From the NCBI GenBank assembly GCA_004292515.1, contig RDXB01000044.1, forward strand, positions 1 to 51,702: a stretch of 51,702 bases of DNA, written 5' to 3'. The position numbers and the translations under genes were made by a program. Shown here one piece after another: positions 330 to 12,079 of the stretch (positions are counted from its first letter, which is position 1; each line of letters starts with the position of its first letter). The notes beneath the pieces were generated by a model. The model was not told the origin of the DNA, did not search any database, and saw only the letters and a list, made by a program, of their open reading frames with translations. Source of the DNA: Oscillatoriales cyanobacterium (GTDB taxonomy: Bacteria > Cyanobacteriota > Cyanobacteriia > CACIAM-69d).

Positions 330-599
330 TCACCCCAGCACCACCCACCACCGCATCAGACTCATCACCTCCCCCGGATTTTGGGTTGGCTGCATCGGCG
401 ACCACTCGTACAACTCTGCAAACCCGCGCAAATACAACACCCGGATCGTGTTTTCCACCGCACGCGGCGACCCGATCGCCATCCGCTTCACCACCTCGCG
501 CCCATCGGCCGGCACTGGCATAGGCTCCCGATGCGATCGCCCCTCAGTGCCAGAATCCGGGGCGATCGGCGTTTCCACAAAATCAGTCATGGTCGTCAT
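330..599 (-). CDS. Small conserved cyanobacterial hypothetical protein
   Basis: This is an 89-residue protein with no enzyme motif that I recognise. The C-terminal half contains RVLYLRGFAELYEWSPMQPT followed by QNPGEVMSLM. I remember closely similar short proteins annotated as hypothetical in many cyanobacteria, but no function is known to me. Two ATG codons lie six bases apart. I chose the downstream one because an AGGAG Shine-Dalgarno sequence sits eight bases before it; the upstream ATG would leave only two. There is no signal peptide or membrane segment. It lies directly upstream of the partial MmeI-like gene on the same strand and divergent from the HTH pair. The half-site TAGCCATTT overlaps its start codon, so it may be regulated together with the HTH genes. 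Confidence 0.55.
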   Translation of the reverse strand: MTTMTDFVETPIAPDSGTEGRSHREPMPVPADGREVVKRMAIGSPRAVENTIRVLYLRGFAELYEWSPMQPTQNPGEVMSLMRWWVVLG

Positions 600-616
600 A
601 GCCATTTCTCCTGAAA

Positions 617-646
617 TTGACTACTTTCTTGTAGCCACTTCAGAAT
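617..646 (+). promoter_or_regulatory. Candidate promoter of the HTH pair
   Basis: TTGACT (617-622) resembles a -35 box. CAGAAT (641-646) is a four-of-six match to a -10 box after an 18-bp spacer. Transcription would begin near 653, before the first HTH gene. A CTAC-N6-GTAG dyad lies between the two boxes, where a bound repressor would exclude RNA polymerase. This is inferred from sequence only. Confidence 0.4.
621..634. promoter_or_regulatory. Candidate operator dyad 1 (CTAC-N6-GTAG)
   Basis: CTAC and GTAG are separated by six bases, exactly as in the longer dyad 47 bp downstream (centre to centre). The right arm continues as GTAGCCACTT, one mismatch from GTAGCCATTT of dyad 2. It sits between the putative -35 and -10 boxes. 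Confidence 0.45.
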
Positions 647-660
647 AACGCAAGATCAAG

Positions 661-688
661 TAAATGGCTACGAATGAGTAGCCATTTA
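661..688. promoter_or_regulatory. Perfect 11-bp inverted repeat, candidate operator dyad 2
   Basis: TAAATGGCTAC and GTAGCCATTTA are perfect complements around a six-base spacer, GAATGA. The dyad lies in the divergent spacer, just downstream of the proposed start point and 32 bp before the first HTH gene. A symmetric site of this size suits a dimeric HTH protein. It could also fold as an RNA hairpin, but it lacks a T-run. Confidence 0.55.
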
Positions 689-720
689 CCCCTAATCCTC
701 TCTCTGACAGCATTGGGGGC

Positions 721-951
721 ATGGGACGCGCCGGACAAGCACTGAAAGAGGTTCTCGCAGCCCACCACATCAGCCAAAATCGTTTGGCCGTTGAGATGGG
801 ATTGCGGCGATCGGTTACTTACCGTTGGGTTCACGAGCTGAGTGATCCAACGGGTGAAACGATCGTGGATATTGTCGAAGCCTTGGCGAAACTGAACCCC
901 GCCGCCGCTCGCGACTTCGTGCAACGCTACCTAGGCGAGTTGATTGACTAG
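721..951 (+). CDS. Small HTH (XRE-like) DNA-binding protein, copy 1
   Basis: This 76-residue protein is almost entirely one helix-turn-helix domain. It begins GRAGQALKEVL, and the turn region ISQNRLAVEMG is followed by TYRWVHE, the expected recognition helix. The C-terminus ends in AARDFVQRYLGEL. About 48 of 76 residues are identical to the next gene, so the two arose by tandem duplication. Its size is close to that of the controller (C) proteins of restriction-modification systems. It is transcribed away from the partial R-M gene, and two dyads of equal geometry lie in between. Autoregulation and control of the R-M gene are therefore reasonable inferences, not demonstrated. Homologous small HTH proteins also occur away from R-M genes in cyanobacteria, as far as I recall. 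Confidence 0.8.
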   Translation: MGRAGQALKEVLAAHHISQNRLAVEMGLRRSVTYRWVHELSDPTGETIVDIVEALAKLNPAAARDFVQRYLGELID

Positions 952-971: not shown

Positions 972-1202
972 ATGGGACGAGCAGGCACAGCACTCAAGCG
1001 CACATTGGAACAGCACGGCATCAGCCAAGGACGGCTGGCCGCTGCATTGCAAATTGGTTCGTCCAATGTCTATCGCTGGTGCAATGAAGTCCGCGATCCC
1101 AATGGCGAAACGATCGTGGAAATCGTTGAAGCTTTAAAGAAATTGCAGCCAGAAGCGGCCCGAGACTTTGTGCAATGCTACCTAGGCGAGCTGGTCGAAT
1201 AA
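972..1202 (+). CDS. Small HTH (XRE-like) DNA-binding protein, copy 2
   Basis: This tandem paralogue starts 20 bp after copy 1 and has the same length of 76 residues. The frame GRAGTALKRTL, ISQGRLAAALQ, VYRWCNEVRDP and AARDFVQCYLGEL matches copy 1 block by block. Most differences fall between residues 20 and 40, around the HTH turn and recognition helix, so the two may bind different half-sites. There is no good Shine-Dalgarno sequence before the ATG, which suggests translation coupled to copy 1. No other domain is present. Confidence 0.8.
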   Translation: MGRAGTALKRTLEQHGISQGRLAAALQIGSSNVYRWCNEVRDPNGETIVEIVEALKKLQPEAARDFVQCYLGELVE

Positions 1203-8950: not shown

Positions 8951-11857
8951 TTAATGGTGCTTGATGCAATCGGCACTGACTAAGAACTGCCGATCGCCCA
9001 CCCAAGGCGGCAAACCGGGCCCCACCACCAGCTCACCCGATCGCTCGGCCGCCGCCACCGCTTGGTTGAGCTGAAACAGGAAGGCGAGTGGATCGGTGCG
9101 ATCGTCCCAACCGTAGGCCGCCGCTACCGCCCGATCGAGCGCGGCATGGGCCCGGTGCAGCGGCGTATCCCCCGGCTGATCCAAGGTTTTGTATAGATCC
9201 CGCAGGCTCCATTGGGCTTCGGCCATCAGGGTTTCGCGCAATTGGCGTAGGGATCGGGCGGCTTCTGCCACAGCGGTGATTTGGGCGATCGTTGCCGTTT
9301 GTGGCCAAGGGAAGGTGTCAAAAACAGTGTTGGAAGTGTAGCGAAAAGTGCCTGCTAAGGTTGAACATTGGTGAGTGAACCATTGCCAATGCCATGAAGA
9401 TTGCAAAATGCCAAAAGAATAGTCATCATCGAGGGCAAAAACCTGCAAGATATCGCTGGGTCGGATAGCGGAACTCACAAGGGCAAAAACGGGGCGTTTG
9501 GTCACGCGCCCACAGACAATGTAGCGATCGCCCTGGCTGATTTTGGCAATCATTTCAGGTCGCGGATAAGACAACAGCCACCAGCGATTTAGAAAATTTT
9601 GATGGTGATGATTAACTTTCGCTTTTGGATTTTTGTTCAGCACTGTTTGATTGCGATCGGCTTCTGCTTGGGCAGCCTGTTGACGGGTCGGTAAGACTTC
9701 ACTTTTAATCTGTTTAAAAATCGCTGGATAGGTTTTTGCAGTCTCTAGGGATTGGGGATGAAAATCAATCACGTAGCGCTGCGGCTGTGGCGGCACACTT
9801 GATAACAATTCATTGGCTGTGAGGTAGGGAAAAAGCACCTCAGCGTTTTTGGGGGATTTTTTTAGAAGTGCGTGGGCTGCTTCGATCGATAACAAAAATC
9901 CCTCATGGCCGTGGGTTTGACCCTGATAGCAAGCTTGCGATCGCACGTTGGCTTGAATCACAGCCGCCTGAGTCACATCAAACGCAGAACTGAGGGCCGC
10001 ATGAATTTGGGCGGGATGTTCCGTGCGCCAGGGACTATCGAGGCGATCGCCCAACTGGGTGATTAGGGTTTTCTGGCCCGTCCACTCCCCCTTAATCCAG
10101 TTAACAATCGACACATGAACCGCCGCCGCCCCTGACCAAACTTGGCTGGAAACCGCGTGGGTAATCGTGCCGCCATTTTGCACAATGTAATCCAGACCGC
10201 CTTCTCGGGAATAGTTTTGGCGAATGGTGTTGGTTCCCACTAATCCAGCACGCTGACCGGGTTTGAGCTGATCATGCGATCGCCGCAACCAATAGACGCA
10301 ATAATCTGCCCGGCCCGGAATTTCGGGATAGCGATCGCGCAGGGTTTTCACATAGGCGGCTCCCAGCTCCTGTTGCATTTTATTTTTGGACTGGAAGGGT
10401 GGATTGCCCACAATTACCTCCGCCGCCGGCCAGGTTTCCAGCATCAAGGCATCCTGTTTACGAATGTTTTGATCCAAAGTATCTAGGGGCAACGCCGGTT
10501 CATTTAGCCCTAGCCGATCGATCGCCACCTTCCGCGCAATCATCAGGGTGACTCGGGCGAGTTCCACCGCAAAGGGATTAATATCCATCCCAAAAAATTG
10601 CAATGGTGTAATTAAACTCAGCCGCCGGAGTCCTGTTTTTTCTAAGGTAGCAATCTTATCTAATAAAACCTGTTCAACTTGCTTGAGTTCCTGATAGGCA
10701 ATATAAAGAAAGTTACCCGAACCGCAAGCCGGATCAAGCACCCGATAGCGCGACAGTTCTAGATGTAATTGATTGAGTTGCTTAAGATTTTGCGCCTGTT
10801 CGATCGCCTGTTCCCAAGGCTGCACGATCGAGGGGCGGATGATCTTCATGATGTCATTTTCGGAGGTGAAGTGCATTCCTCCTGCATGGCGATCGCGATC
10901 GGTCGTGGTTTGCTCAAAAATATTGCCAAAAATGGCGGGCTGTACCTTTGTCCAATTCTGATCAGCCGCCACTTTCAGCAACTTCAACTCATCCCGTTCC
11001 AGATCAATCGCCGGAATTTGGGCAAACAATCCCCCATTAAAATAGTCTGTGTTTTGAAAGCGACCATAGGGCGTTTTGCCCTGTCGGTTCATGTGGCGAA
11101 ATAGCCCTTCACACAAAATGTCATAGGTGCTTTCGCCAGGATCATCGCTATTTTGAGGCAAGCACCGATCCAAGCAGTCAGAAAAACGATTGGGCGGCAA
11201 CAAACCCCGCCCCTGGGCAAACATGCCCAACACGCACTGCAACACAAACCGCTGGGCATCGGCTTCGGTGTAGGGTGGATTTTTGAGGCGACCGCGCCGG
11301 TCACAGAGCGATCGATACAGCAGCCCCATCCGTTGGGCCGCCGTTGCCGTCACCTCGACAATTTGCCCATCGCGAAACTTGGGTTTTGCCGTGCCCCGCT
11401 CCATAAACCGAAAGGCTTCGGGATGAAACGGCAACTCATCGAGGGCCAACCGTTCAACGGGAATGCTGACCGACTGGGTGAGGTCGTAGATCCAAAACTG
11501 CTCGAAGTTGCAAAGGATGATGTATTGCGGTTGGGGGTTAAGGCGCTGGGCATAGCCCCAGGCTTGGTTGTAGTGGCGATCGAGCTGTCGTTCCGATCGC
11601 CGCTTCAGCTCAATCAACAGCGATCCATCGGGCCAATACAAATCGGCGTAACCCGTTTGGCCCTTGCGACTGCCCTGATCCACCACTTGCTCGATCGTTG
11701 CCCCCGCTTGCTTGGTTCCGGCATACCCAAACGCCTGAAAGAACGCCTCTAGAAACGGCCCGCTATTGCTGCGTTCTGTGGCTGCGGGTTGCGACAGGAT
11801 ATAGGTTTGGCAAAAGGTGACAAACTCCTGAAGTCGATCGCGGTTGACTAGCGGCAT
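8951..11857 (-). CDS. MmeI-like (type IIG/IIL) restriction-modification enzyme
   Basis: This single chain of about 968 residues carries nuclease, methyltransferase and specificity parts. The N-terminus has GQTGYADLYW and LLIELKRRSE, giving the D...E-x-K of the nuclease domain. The helical connector is followed by methyltransferase motif I (RVLDPACGSGNFLYIAY) and motif IV (VIVGNPPFQSK); the NPPF form indicates adenine-N6 methylation. The C-terminal third (FRYTSNTVFDTFPWPQ, then AARSLRQLRE) is the usual target-recognition part. No separate specificity or methylase gene is needed in this family. The frame extends to 11980, but its extra residues lack family features, so I use the ATG before PLVNRDRLQEF; neither start has a good ribosome site. 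The gene appears intact. The recognition sequence cannot be read from this data. A second member begins at the left edge of the window. Confidence 0.85.
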   Translation of the reverse strand: MPLVNRDRLQEFVTFCQTYILSQPAATERSNSGPFLEAFFQAFGYAGTKQAGATIEQVVDQGSRKGQTGYADLYWPDGSLLIELKRRSERQLDRHYNQAWGYAQRLNPQPQYIILCNFEQFWIYDLTQSVSIPVERLALDELPFHPEAFRFMERGTAKPKFRDGQIVEVTATAAQRMGLLYRSLCDRRGRLKNPPYTEADAQRFVLQCVLGMFAQGRGLLPPNRFSDCLDRCLPQNSDDPGESTYDILCEGLFRHMNRQGKTPYGRFQNTDYFNGGLFAQIPAIDLERDELKLLKVAADQNWTKVQPAIFGNIFEQTTTDRDRHAGGMHFTSENDIMKIIRPSIVQPWEQAIEQAQNLKQLNQLHLELSRYRVLDPACGSGNFLYIAYQELKQVEQVLLDKIATLEKTGLRRLSLITPLQFFGMDINPFAVELARVTLMIARKVAIDRLGLNEPALPLDTLDQNIRKQDALMLETWPAAEVIVGNPPFQSKNKMQQELGAAYVKTLRDRYPEIPGRADYCVYWLRRSHDQLKPGQRAGLVGTNTIRQNYSREGGLDYIVQNGGTITHAVSSQVWSGAAAVHVSIVNWIKGEWTGQKTLITQLGDRLDSPWRTEHPAQIHAALSSAFDVTQAAVIQANVRSQACYQGQTHGHEGFLLSIEAAHALLKKSPKNAEVLFPYLTANELLSSVPPQPQRYVIDFHPQSLETAKTYPAIFKQIKSEVLPTRQQAAQAEADRNQTVLNKNPKAKVNHHHQNFLNRWWLLSYPRPEMIAKISQGDRYIVCGRVTKRPVFALVSSAIRPSDILQVFALDDDYSFGILQSSWHWQWFTHQCSTLAGTFRYTSNTVFDTFPWPQTATIAQITAVAEAARSLRQLRETLMAEAQWSLRDLYKTLDQPGDTPLHRAHAALDRAVAAAYGWDDRTDPLAFLFQLNQAVAAAERSGELVVGPGLPPWVGDRQFLVSADCIKHH

Positions 11858-12079
11858 GAGGGATAGCAGATCAGCAGATAGGCAAAAGGCTGGGCCAAAG
11901 GTAGCGATCGCAGCCATCCCTATTAAAGCGTTGATTCTCGGTGGGGAAATTGGTTGGAACTCAACCCACCCATCAACCAAAAGCGATCGAGCCAGGGTTG
12001 CCAGTACAGCAAACGGCTCGATCGCTTTTCAGATCACATATTCAGATCGCCCGGAGCGATCGCCCTCAAATCAAACGAC

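Follow-up and report, generated by a model that had tools for sequence, protein, structure and literature searches.

A putative XRE repressor module with paired, locus-specific operators, divergent from a conserved small protein, in an Oscillatoriales cyanobacterium

The window, the whole 51,702-nucleotide stretch of Oscillatoriales cyanobacterium contig RDXB01000044.1, carries at its left end an MmeI-like N-terminus and the small gene S91 on the minus strand, a 115-bp spacer, and the tandem genes HTH1 and HTH2 on the plus strand. The features of this region are as follows.

246-1, minus strand: MmeI-like ORF, N-terminus only, running off the contig edge
330-605, minus strand: S91, small protein of 89-91 aa, divergent from HTH1
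598-607, no strand: half-site, ATAGCCATTT, covering the S91 start and ribosome-binding region; a full site is not formed
615-640, no strand: O2, AATTGACTAC-TTTCTT-GTAGCCACTT, degenerate copy of O1, centre 47 bp from that of O1
642-647, minus strand: probable S91 -10, TATTCT, between O1 and O2, assigned from the family consensus and the sequence
660-689, no strand: O1, GTAAATGGCTAC-GAATGA-GTAGCCATTTAC, perfect 12-bp dyad, position kept in 96 relatives
665-670, minus strand: probable S91 -35, TAGCCA, inside O1, assigned from the family consensus TTnACA-N17-TATAAT, to which it is a weaker match
685-690, plus strand: -35 of the HTH promoter, TTTACC, conserved family-wide
705-713, plus strand: extended -10 of the HTH promoter, TGA-CAGCAT (CAGCAT at 708-713), 7 nt before the ATG, with a start predicted to be leaderless
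721-951, plus strand: HTH1, 76-aa XRE (Cro/CI-type) protein, recognition helix RRSVTYRW, PF01381 E 7.5e-5
972-1202, plus strand: HTH2, 76-aa tandem paralogue, 63% identical to HTH1, helix GSSNVYRW, PF01381 E 1.5e-8

Both HTH frames encode 76 residues, as the preliminary description had given, and the HTH_3 domain exceeds its curated cut-off of 23 bits in each (23.1 bits in HTH1 and 35 bits in HTH2). HTH2 has no promoter of its own and is probably co-transcribed with HTH1. Translation of S91 probably starts at 599, preceded by the Shine-Dalgarno sequence AGGAG. Comparison of the window DNA with plasmid records gave no match. Downstream of HTH2, positions 1229-1360 hold a short interspersed, MITE-like element bounded by perfect inverted repeats of 13 bp (AGAGGATGTCTGA / TCAGACATCCTCT), and about 40 related copies are found elsewhere in the genome.

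The spacer dyads from which this analysis departs are present in the sequence. A perfect 11-bp dyad with N6 spacing had been described at 661-688; the dyad and its spacing stand, with arms that are longer, reaching 12 bp at 660-689 (O1). Dinucleotide shuffling of the spacer, repeated 5000 times, produced no arm longer than 10 bp, so O1 is not a product of chance. CTAC-N6-GTAG at 621-634 likewise reads as described (CTAC-TTTCTT-GTAG) and is not significant alone, with 4-N6-4 dyads occurring about 4.8 times per kb across the window; when the 28-bp stretch 614-641 is set against O1, however, 17 of 22 arm positions agree, against 15 in the best of 3000 shuffles, which marks O2 as a genuine copy of O1. 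The half-site over the start of the small minus-strand ORF was also recovered, at 598-607, where it can be read as TAGCCATTT at 599-607, overlapping the 5′ end of the ORF at 605-330. With up to 3 mismatches allowed, ATGGCTAC-N6-GTAGCCAT matches the whole window only at 617-638 and 664-685 (0.09 expected), and a scan of the 4-Mb genome for O1 returned no second site with fewer than 3 mismatches, 3-mismatch matches being near the control frequency. The right end of O1 overlaps the -35 of the HTH promoter, ending on its first base. O1 and O2 are very probably private binding sites of the neighbouring HTH1.

HTH1 belongs to a cyanobacterial XRE family found in 64 of 145 genomes, with up to 13 matches per genome, often in tandem arrays. 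The conserved module consists of one to three small XRE genes in tandem, divergent from S91 (~90 aa), an arrangement that recurs in congeners in differing gene contexts. No fixed neighbour gene accompanies the module, 98 of 147 adjacent ORFs being singletons. The HTH1 protein had no match in 50,697 phage records, and module neighbours are heterogeneous and cellular. Several individual loci merit mention. A paralogous S91-HTH module of the window genome (L039 4212-5564, contig C92) adjoins a HepT-like/nucleotidyltransferase pair. The closest HTH1 relative (L010/L040 1408-1635) is the third gene of a three-gene array, interrupted by a stop codon in G001 and intact in G002. The HTH domain of the family can also be fused to an HNH_4 nuclease domain, or followed by one after a break (L213 4001-5377, on pSYSM, and L028 1501-2744), and the pSYSM gene sits between SspB/SspC-like and DndA/SspA-like genes.

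Promoter conservation was assessed upstream of 120 distinct first-in-array HTH starts drawn from 213 loci. The pattern TTTACn-N17-TGnnAnnAT precedes 96 of these genes, compared with 0/120 in each of 20 rounds of shuffling and 0/29 before downstream array genes; the invariant promoter letters are partly fixed by the search pattern, and the evidence is the count against these controls. The -10 lies 6-8 nt from the ATG in 90 of the 96 loci, mostly 6-7, a layout that fits a sigma-70-type promoter with an extended -10 and a start at or beside the AUG, predicting a leaderless mRNA. A different promoter, TTGACT/CAGAAT, had been put forward in the preliminary description; its letters are present at 617-622 and 641-646 but are not conserved in relatives, whereas TTTACC/CAGCAT is. 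This bears on another reading of the region, in which the CTCTGA...TGGGGG before the ATG would be an RNA hairpin or other element, with transcription coming from farther upstream, for example from TTGACT/CAGAAT. The consensus CCTCTGA / TnRGGGG is indeed partly self-complementary, counting G-U pairs, yet it shows no covariation beyond column composition (p 0.16 for Watson-Crick pairs, 0.08 with wobble), on which ground a hairpin over the -10 was set aside, and the conserved TG, A, A and T together with the 17-nt distance to TTTAC suit an extended -10. Transcription from upstream through such an element is accordingly considered improbable, and the promoter with the extended -10 is preferred.

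The operators occupy a fixed place on this promoter. A 20-22-bp dyad in relatives terminates on the first T of TTTAC, with 4.7 of 8 outer pairs complementary at the -35 compared with 2.2 at other positions. A second copy of the dyad lies upstream with at least 12/16 agreement in 66 of 96 loci (null ~1) and with at least 13 in 51 loci (null 0). The median start-to-start distance between the two copies is 36 bp, and the 47-bp spacing of O1 and O2 in the window is an outlier relative to the usual 30-40, roughly one helical turn more. Upstream of homologous HTH genes, the dyads are kept in position but differ in sequence.

S91 is divergent from the HTH genes in 79 loci, and the HTH promoter is present in 72 of these compared with 20 of 37 loci without S91 (p 1.2e-5). 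An opposite-strand column profile gives the S91 promoter consensus TTnACA-N17-TATAAT; the -35 of this promoter falls in the right half of O1, and the -10 in the gap that separates O1 from O2. Scanning for this promoter gave a modest gain in score (8.34, compared with 7.90 in shuffles) and a strongly clustered best offset, 25 of 59 falling at one position; the candidates in the window are weaker than the consensus and are shifted along with O2. The protein is mostly 80-110 aa in length with a variable N-terminus and the core [IV]GSxxxVxxxIxxLHxxGFAExxxWSP...PGEVMSVL, predicted to form a beta-alpha-beta core with pLDDT above 90. It matched no family in Pfam, and fold searches gave at best a VIA Z of 4.0 and a Foldseek E of 0.18; only ACT/PII-like and other beta-alpha-beta chains came up, none significant, and no reliable fold relative was accepted. 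Many genomes also carry S91 without an HTH partner, and a single genome can have as many as 18 matches. At four loci (L138, L154, L163 and L204) S91 is replaced by a second family of small partners (MTYGDRLKRWAVVRLL...), encoded divergently from the HTH gene, and the promoter and operators are the same. A relative of S91 is also encoded by a Scytonema plasmid of 18.9 kb, where it lies divergent from a gene for an HTH protein belonging to another XRE type (L219 1855-2725).

The sequence of the operator varies by locus. Proteins with the helix IDRSAVFKW are associated with TGTTGTC...GACAACA, those with INRSTV[YH]QW with TGTTTGTA...TACAAACA, and those with IERTVVYRW with TGTGAAC...GTTCACA. Operator-half similarity tracks residues 27-39 after correction for the remainder of the protein (partial Mantel 0.295; maximum of 999 permutations 0.082), and residues 24, 29, 20 and 32 are the most informative. 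At scaffold identities below 65%, prediction from the nearest helix recovers 4.2 of 8 operator bases, compared with 3.0 at random. Among the helices closest to that of the window, GMRPSVVYRWVSE is paired with the operator ATGACTAC-ATTTAT-ATAGTGAT, DVRRSVVYRWFHE with GTGTCTAC-ATAAAT-ATAGTTAT, and GVRRSVVYHWFHE with ATGGCTAT-ACAAAT-ATAGTCAT, each with the core and N6 spacing found in the window. Other R-x-S-V-x-Y-[RH]-W proteins (L012, L016, L127 and L138) have CTA[CT]-N6-[AG]TAG cores, which lends independent support to HTH1 reading O1 and O2. Counter-examples exist, however: the VRRSVVFRWF group (GVRRSVVFRWFHE) has a helix close to that of the window and a different operator, AGTGTCCAT, and the nearest HTH1 relative, gene 3 of the G002 array (helix RRSVPYRW), lacks CTAC-N6-GTAG directly upstream. 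The half GTAGCCA is present at the first promoter of that three-gene array. Statistical covariation suggests that operator specificity is set by the recognition helix. HTH2 may read a site other than O1 or O2, as a relative sharing its helix type GSSNVYRW (L180) has AGTCC...GGACT.

The neighbour of S91 was correctly described as the beginning of an MmeI-like restriction-modification (R-M) enzyme: the ORF at 246-1 carries an MmeI_N domain of 61 residues, cut by the contig end, that scores 27.3 bits against a cut-off of 27. Over their first 293 bp, the window and contig C91 of this genome share 92.5% identity, and since the MmeI-like 5′ end at this contig edge (1-293) also starts C91, a duplicated gene probably caused the break in the assembly. 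A second, long MmeI-like gene lies on the minus strand at 9002-11998, with an open frame of ~1000 aa. The preliminary description had tied the dyads and HTH genes to the R-M gene, and HTH1 and HTH2 could be pictured as controller (C) proteins of the MmeI-like type IIL enzyme, the dyads timing restriction. The resemblance to C proteins (PMC4824078) extends to their size, the paired dyads, the predicted leaderless promoter and the -35 overlap, and the MmeI-like gene, whose start follows the end of S91 by 84 bp in the same orientation, could be reached by transcripts running on from the S91 promoter. The genomic context, however, does not bear this out. Tblastn with seven MmeI-like proteins gave matches only in the window among the HTH/S91 loci examined. 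The MmeI 5′ end recurs on C91, where neither HTH nor S91 was found, the HTH and S91 matches of this genome being on C74 and C92, with a weak HTH fragment on C28. The closest MmeI-like relative is on G004:C11 (79% identical over 84 aa), and the HTH and S91 genes of G004 are on C6, C7, C9 and C13. Nor did the window scan place any O1-like site before the start of the MmeI-like gene. A search of the PDB with the HTH profile returned P22 C2 and other XRE proteins, with no C protein among the sequence-detectable solved relatives at E <= 0.01, although a sequence search can miss remote ones. Control of the R-M gene was rejected on the lack of MmeI linkage elsewhere and of an O1-like site before MmeI, and it is regarded as very improbable. 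HTH pairs lacking both the dyads and R-M neighbours had been named as evidence against the proposal; R-M neighbours are indeed lacking at the other loci examined, but the dyads keep their position. What survives of the suggested C-protein-like autoregulation is the operator pair, the -35 overlap and the predicted leaderless start, without the R-M linkage.

In the preferred reading, which is quite probable, HTH1 has O1 and O2 as its private operators within a self-contained module, binding both, repressing S91 and regulating its own promoter. Paired dyads at a set position on a conserved promoter, the covariation with the helix and the association with S91 are observed; binding, repression of S91, leaderless transcription and the direction of autoregulation are inferred from sequence. 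With HTH1 dimers on both operators, the one at O1 would mask the S91 -35 and the one at O2 the S91 start region, the likely result being repression of S91. HTH1 would also act on its own promoter from O1, which reaches the first base of the weak HTH1 -35, and the transcript made there is predicted to begin at the AUG or beside it. The O1 dyad is centred ~45 bp upstream of the predicted HTH1 start, touching the -35, and by analogy both activation (as at lambda PRM or the C-protein OL) and repression (as at the C.Csp231I OR, PMC4824078) of the HTH gene are possible; we lean towards repression of S91 with HTH1 autoregulation of either sign. Modules of one to three small XRE genes and S91 occur in many copies at unrelated places in cyanobacteria, and each would have an operator matched to its own recognition helix, such that paralogues in one cell need not cross-talk.

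The role of S91 allows other readings. It is possible, though unlikely, that S91 is a partner of the HTH protein, an anti-repressor or ligand-sensing co-regulator, and not the target effector. Its predicted beta-alpha-beta core weakly resembles ACT/PII-like folds and its sequence tracks that of the HTH protein (Mantel 0.27), but no fold match reaches significance (Foldseek E <= 0.001), and the correlation, which can arise by joint inheritance, is 0.27 for the DNA-binding half as against 0.20 for the C-terminal part. Somewhat less likely still is an addiction or toxin-antitoxin-like unit in which a harmful or growth-modulating S91 is kept silent by the HTH protein. The compact, multi-copy two-gene unit without fixed neighbours would suit such a role, as would the HepT/MNT and RelE/HigA pairs that adjoin family HTH proteins in some loci; against it, the genes are divergent and not operonic, many S91 copies lack an HTH gene, and S91 has no similarity to toxins in Pfam or PADLOC. 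As in type II toxin-antitoxin systems with XRE antitoxins (HigA, HI1420 group), the module is compact and has a small, probably autoregulating XRE protein, with weak HMM similarity to that group at scores far under the family cut-offs; unlike them, it has a divergent layout and S91 is unrelated to known toxins.

HTH1, as the putative private repressor of its own module, also has parallels among C-protein and phage-repressor switches. C.Csp231I recognizes CTAAG-n5-CTTAG twice, with an 18-nt gap and ~33 bp between centres; the -35 overlaps the proximal site and the C transcript is leaderless (PMC4824078). The module shares with this and other C proteins a small XRE protein, two inverted-repeat operators and a -35 over the proximal site, but it lacks R-M genes, has the divergent S91 instead, and uses locus-specific sites of 20-22 bp. 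With P22 C2 and lambda CI it shares the HTH family, operators paired between divergent promoters and private specificity through the recognition helix, whereas HTH1 has no CI-type C-terminal dimerisation/cleavage domain, no phage genes surround the module, and S91 is not a Cro-like HTH protein. The N-terminal domain of a pSYSM protein of Synechocystis PCC 6803 (WP_011153553.1) is 55% identical to HTH1, but it is fused to an HNH nuclease domain and lacks the conserved promoter and S91. Judged from its sequence features, the module appears to work like C-protein and phage-repressor switches, yet it fails the tests of R-M and phage linkage.

No description of such a module was found in the open-access literature searched. 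The broader reading, about evenly balanced between holding and failing, is that these loci form a large family of two-gene switches in cyanobacteria that seems not to have been described, each a small XRE repressor with a divergent S91, in which the promoter layout is frozen while operator and helix co-diversify, giving dozens of orthogonal repressor-operator pairs, several per genome, that control a possibly selfish or defensive protein. The account of type IIL enzyme control is replaced by a testable one of a widespread, unnamed module whose promoter chassis is fixed and whose operators vary by locus. Attention is drawn to S91 as a conserved small protein outside Pfam, the covariation of helix and operator provides a data set for XRE recognition rules, and the module family may supply cyanobacterial engineering with orthogonal repressor-operator pairs.
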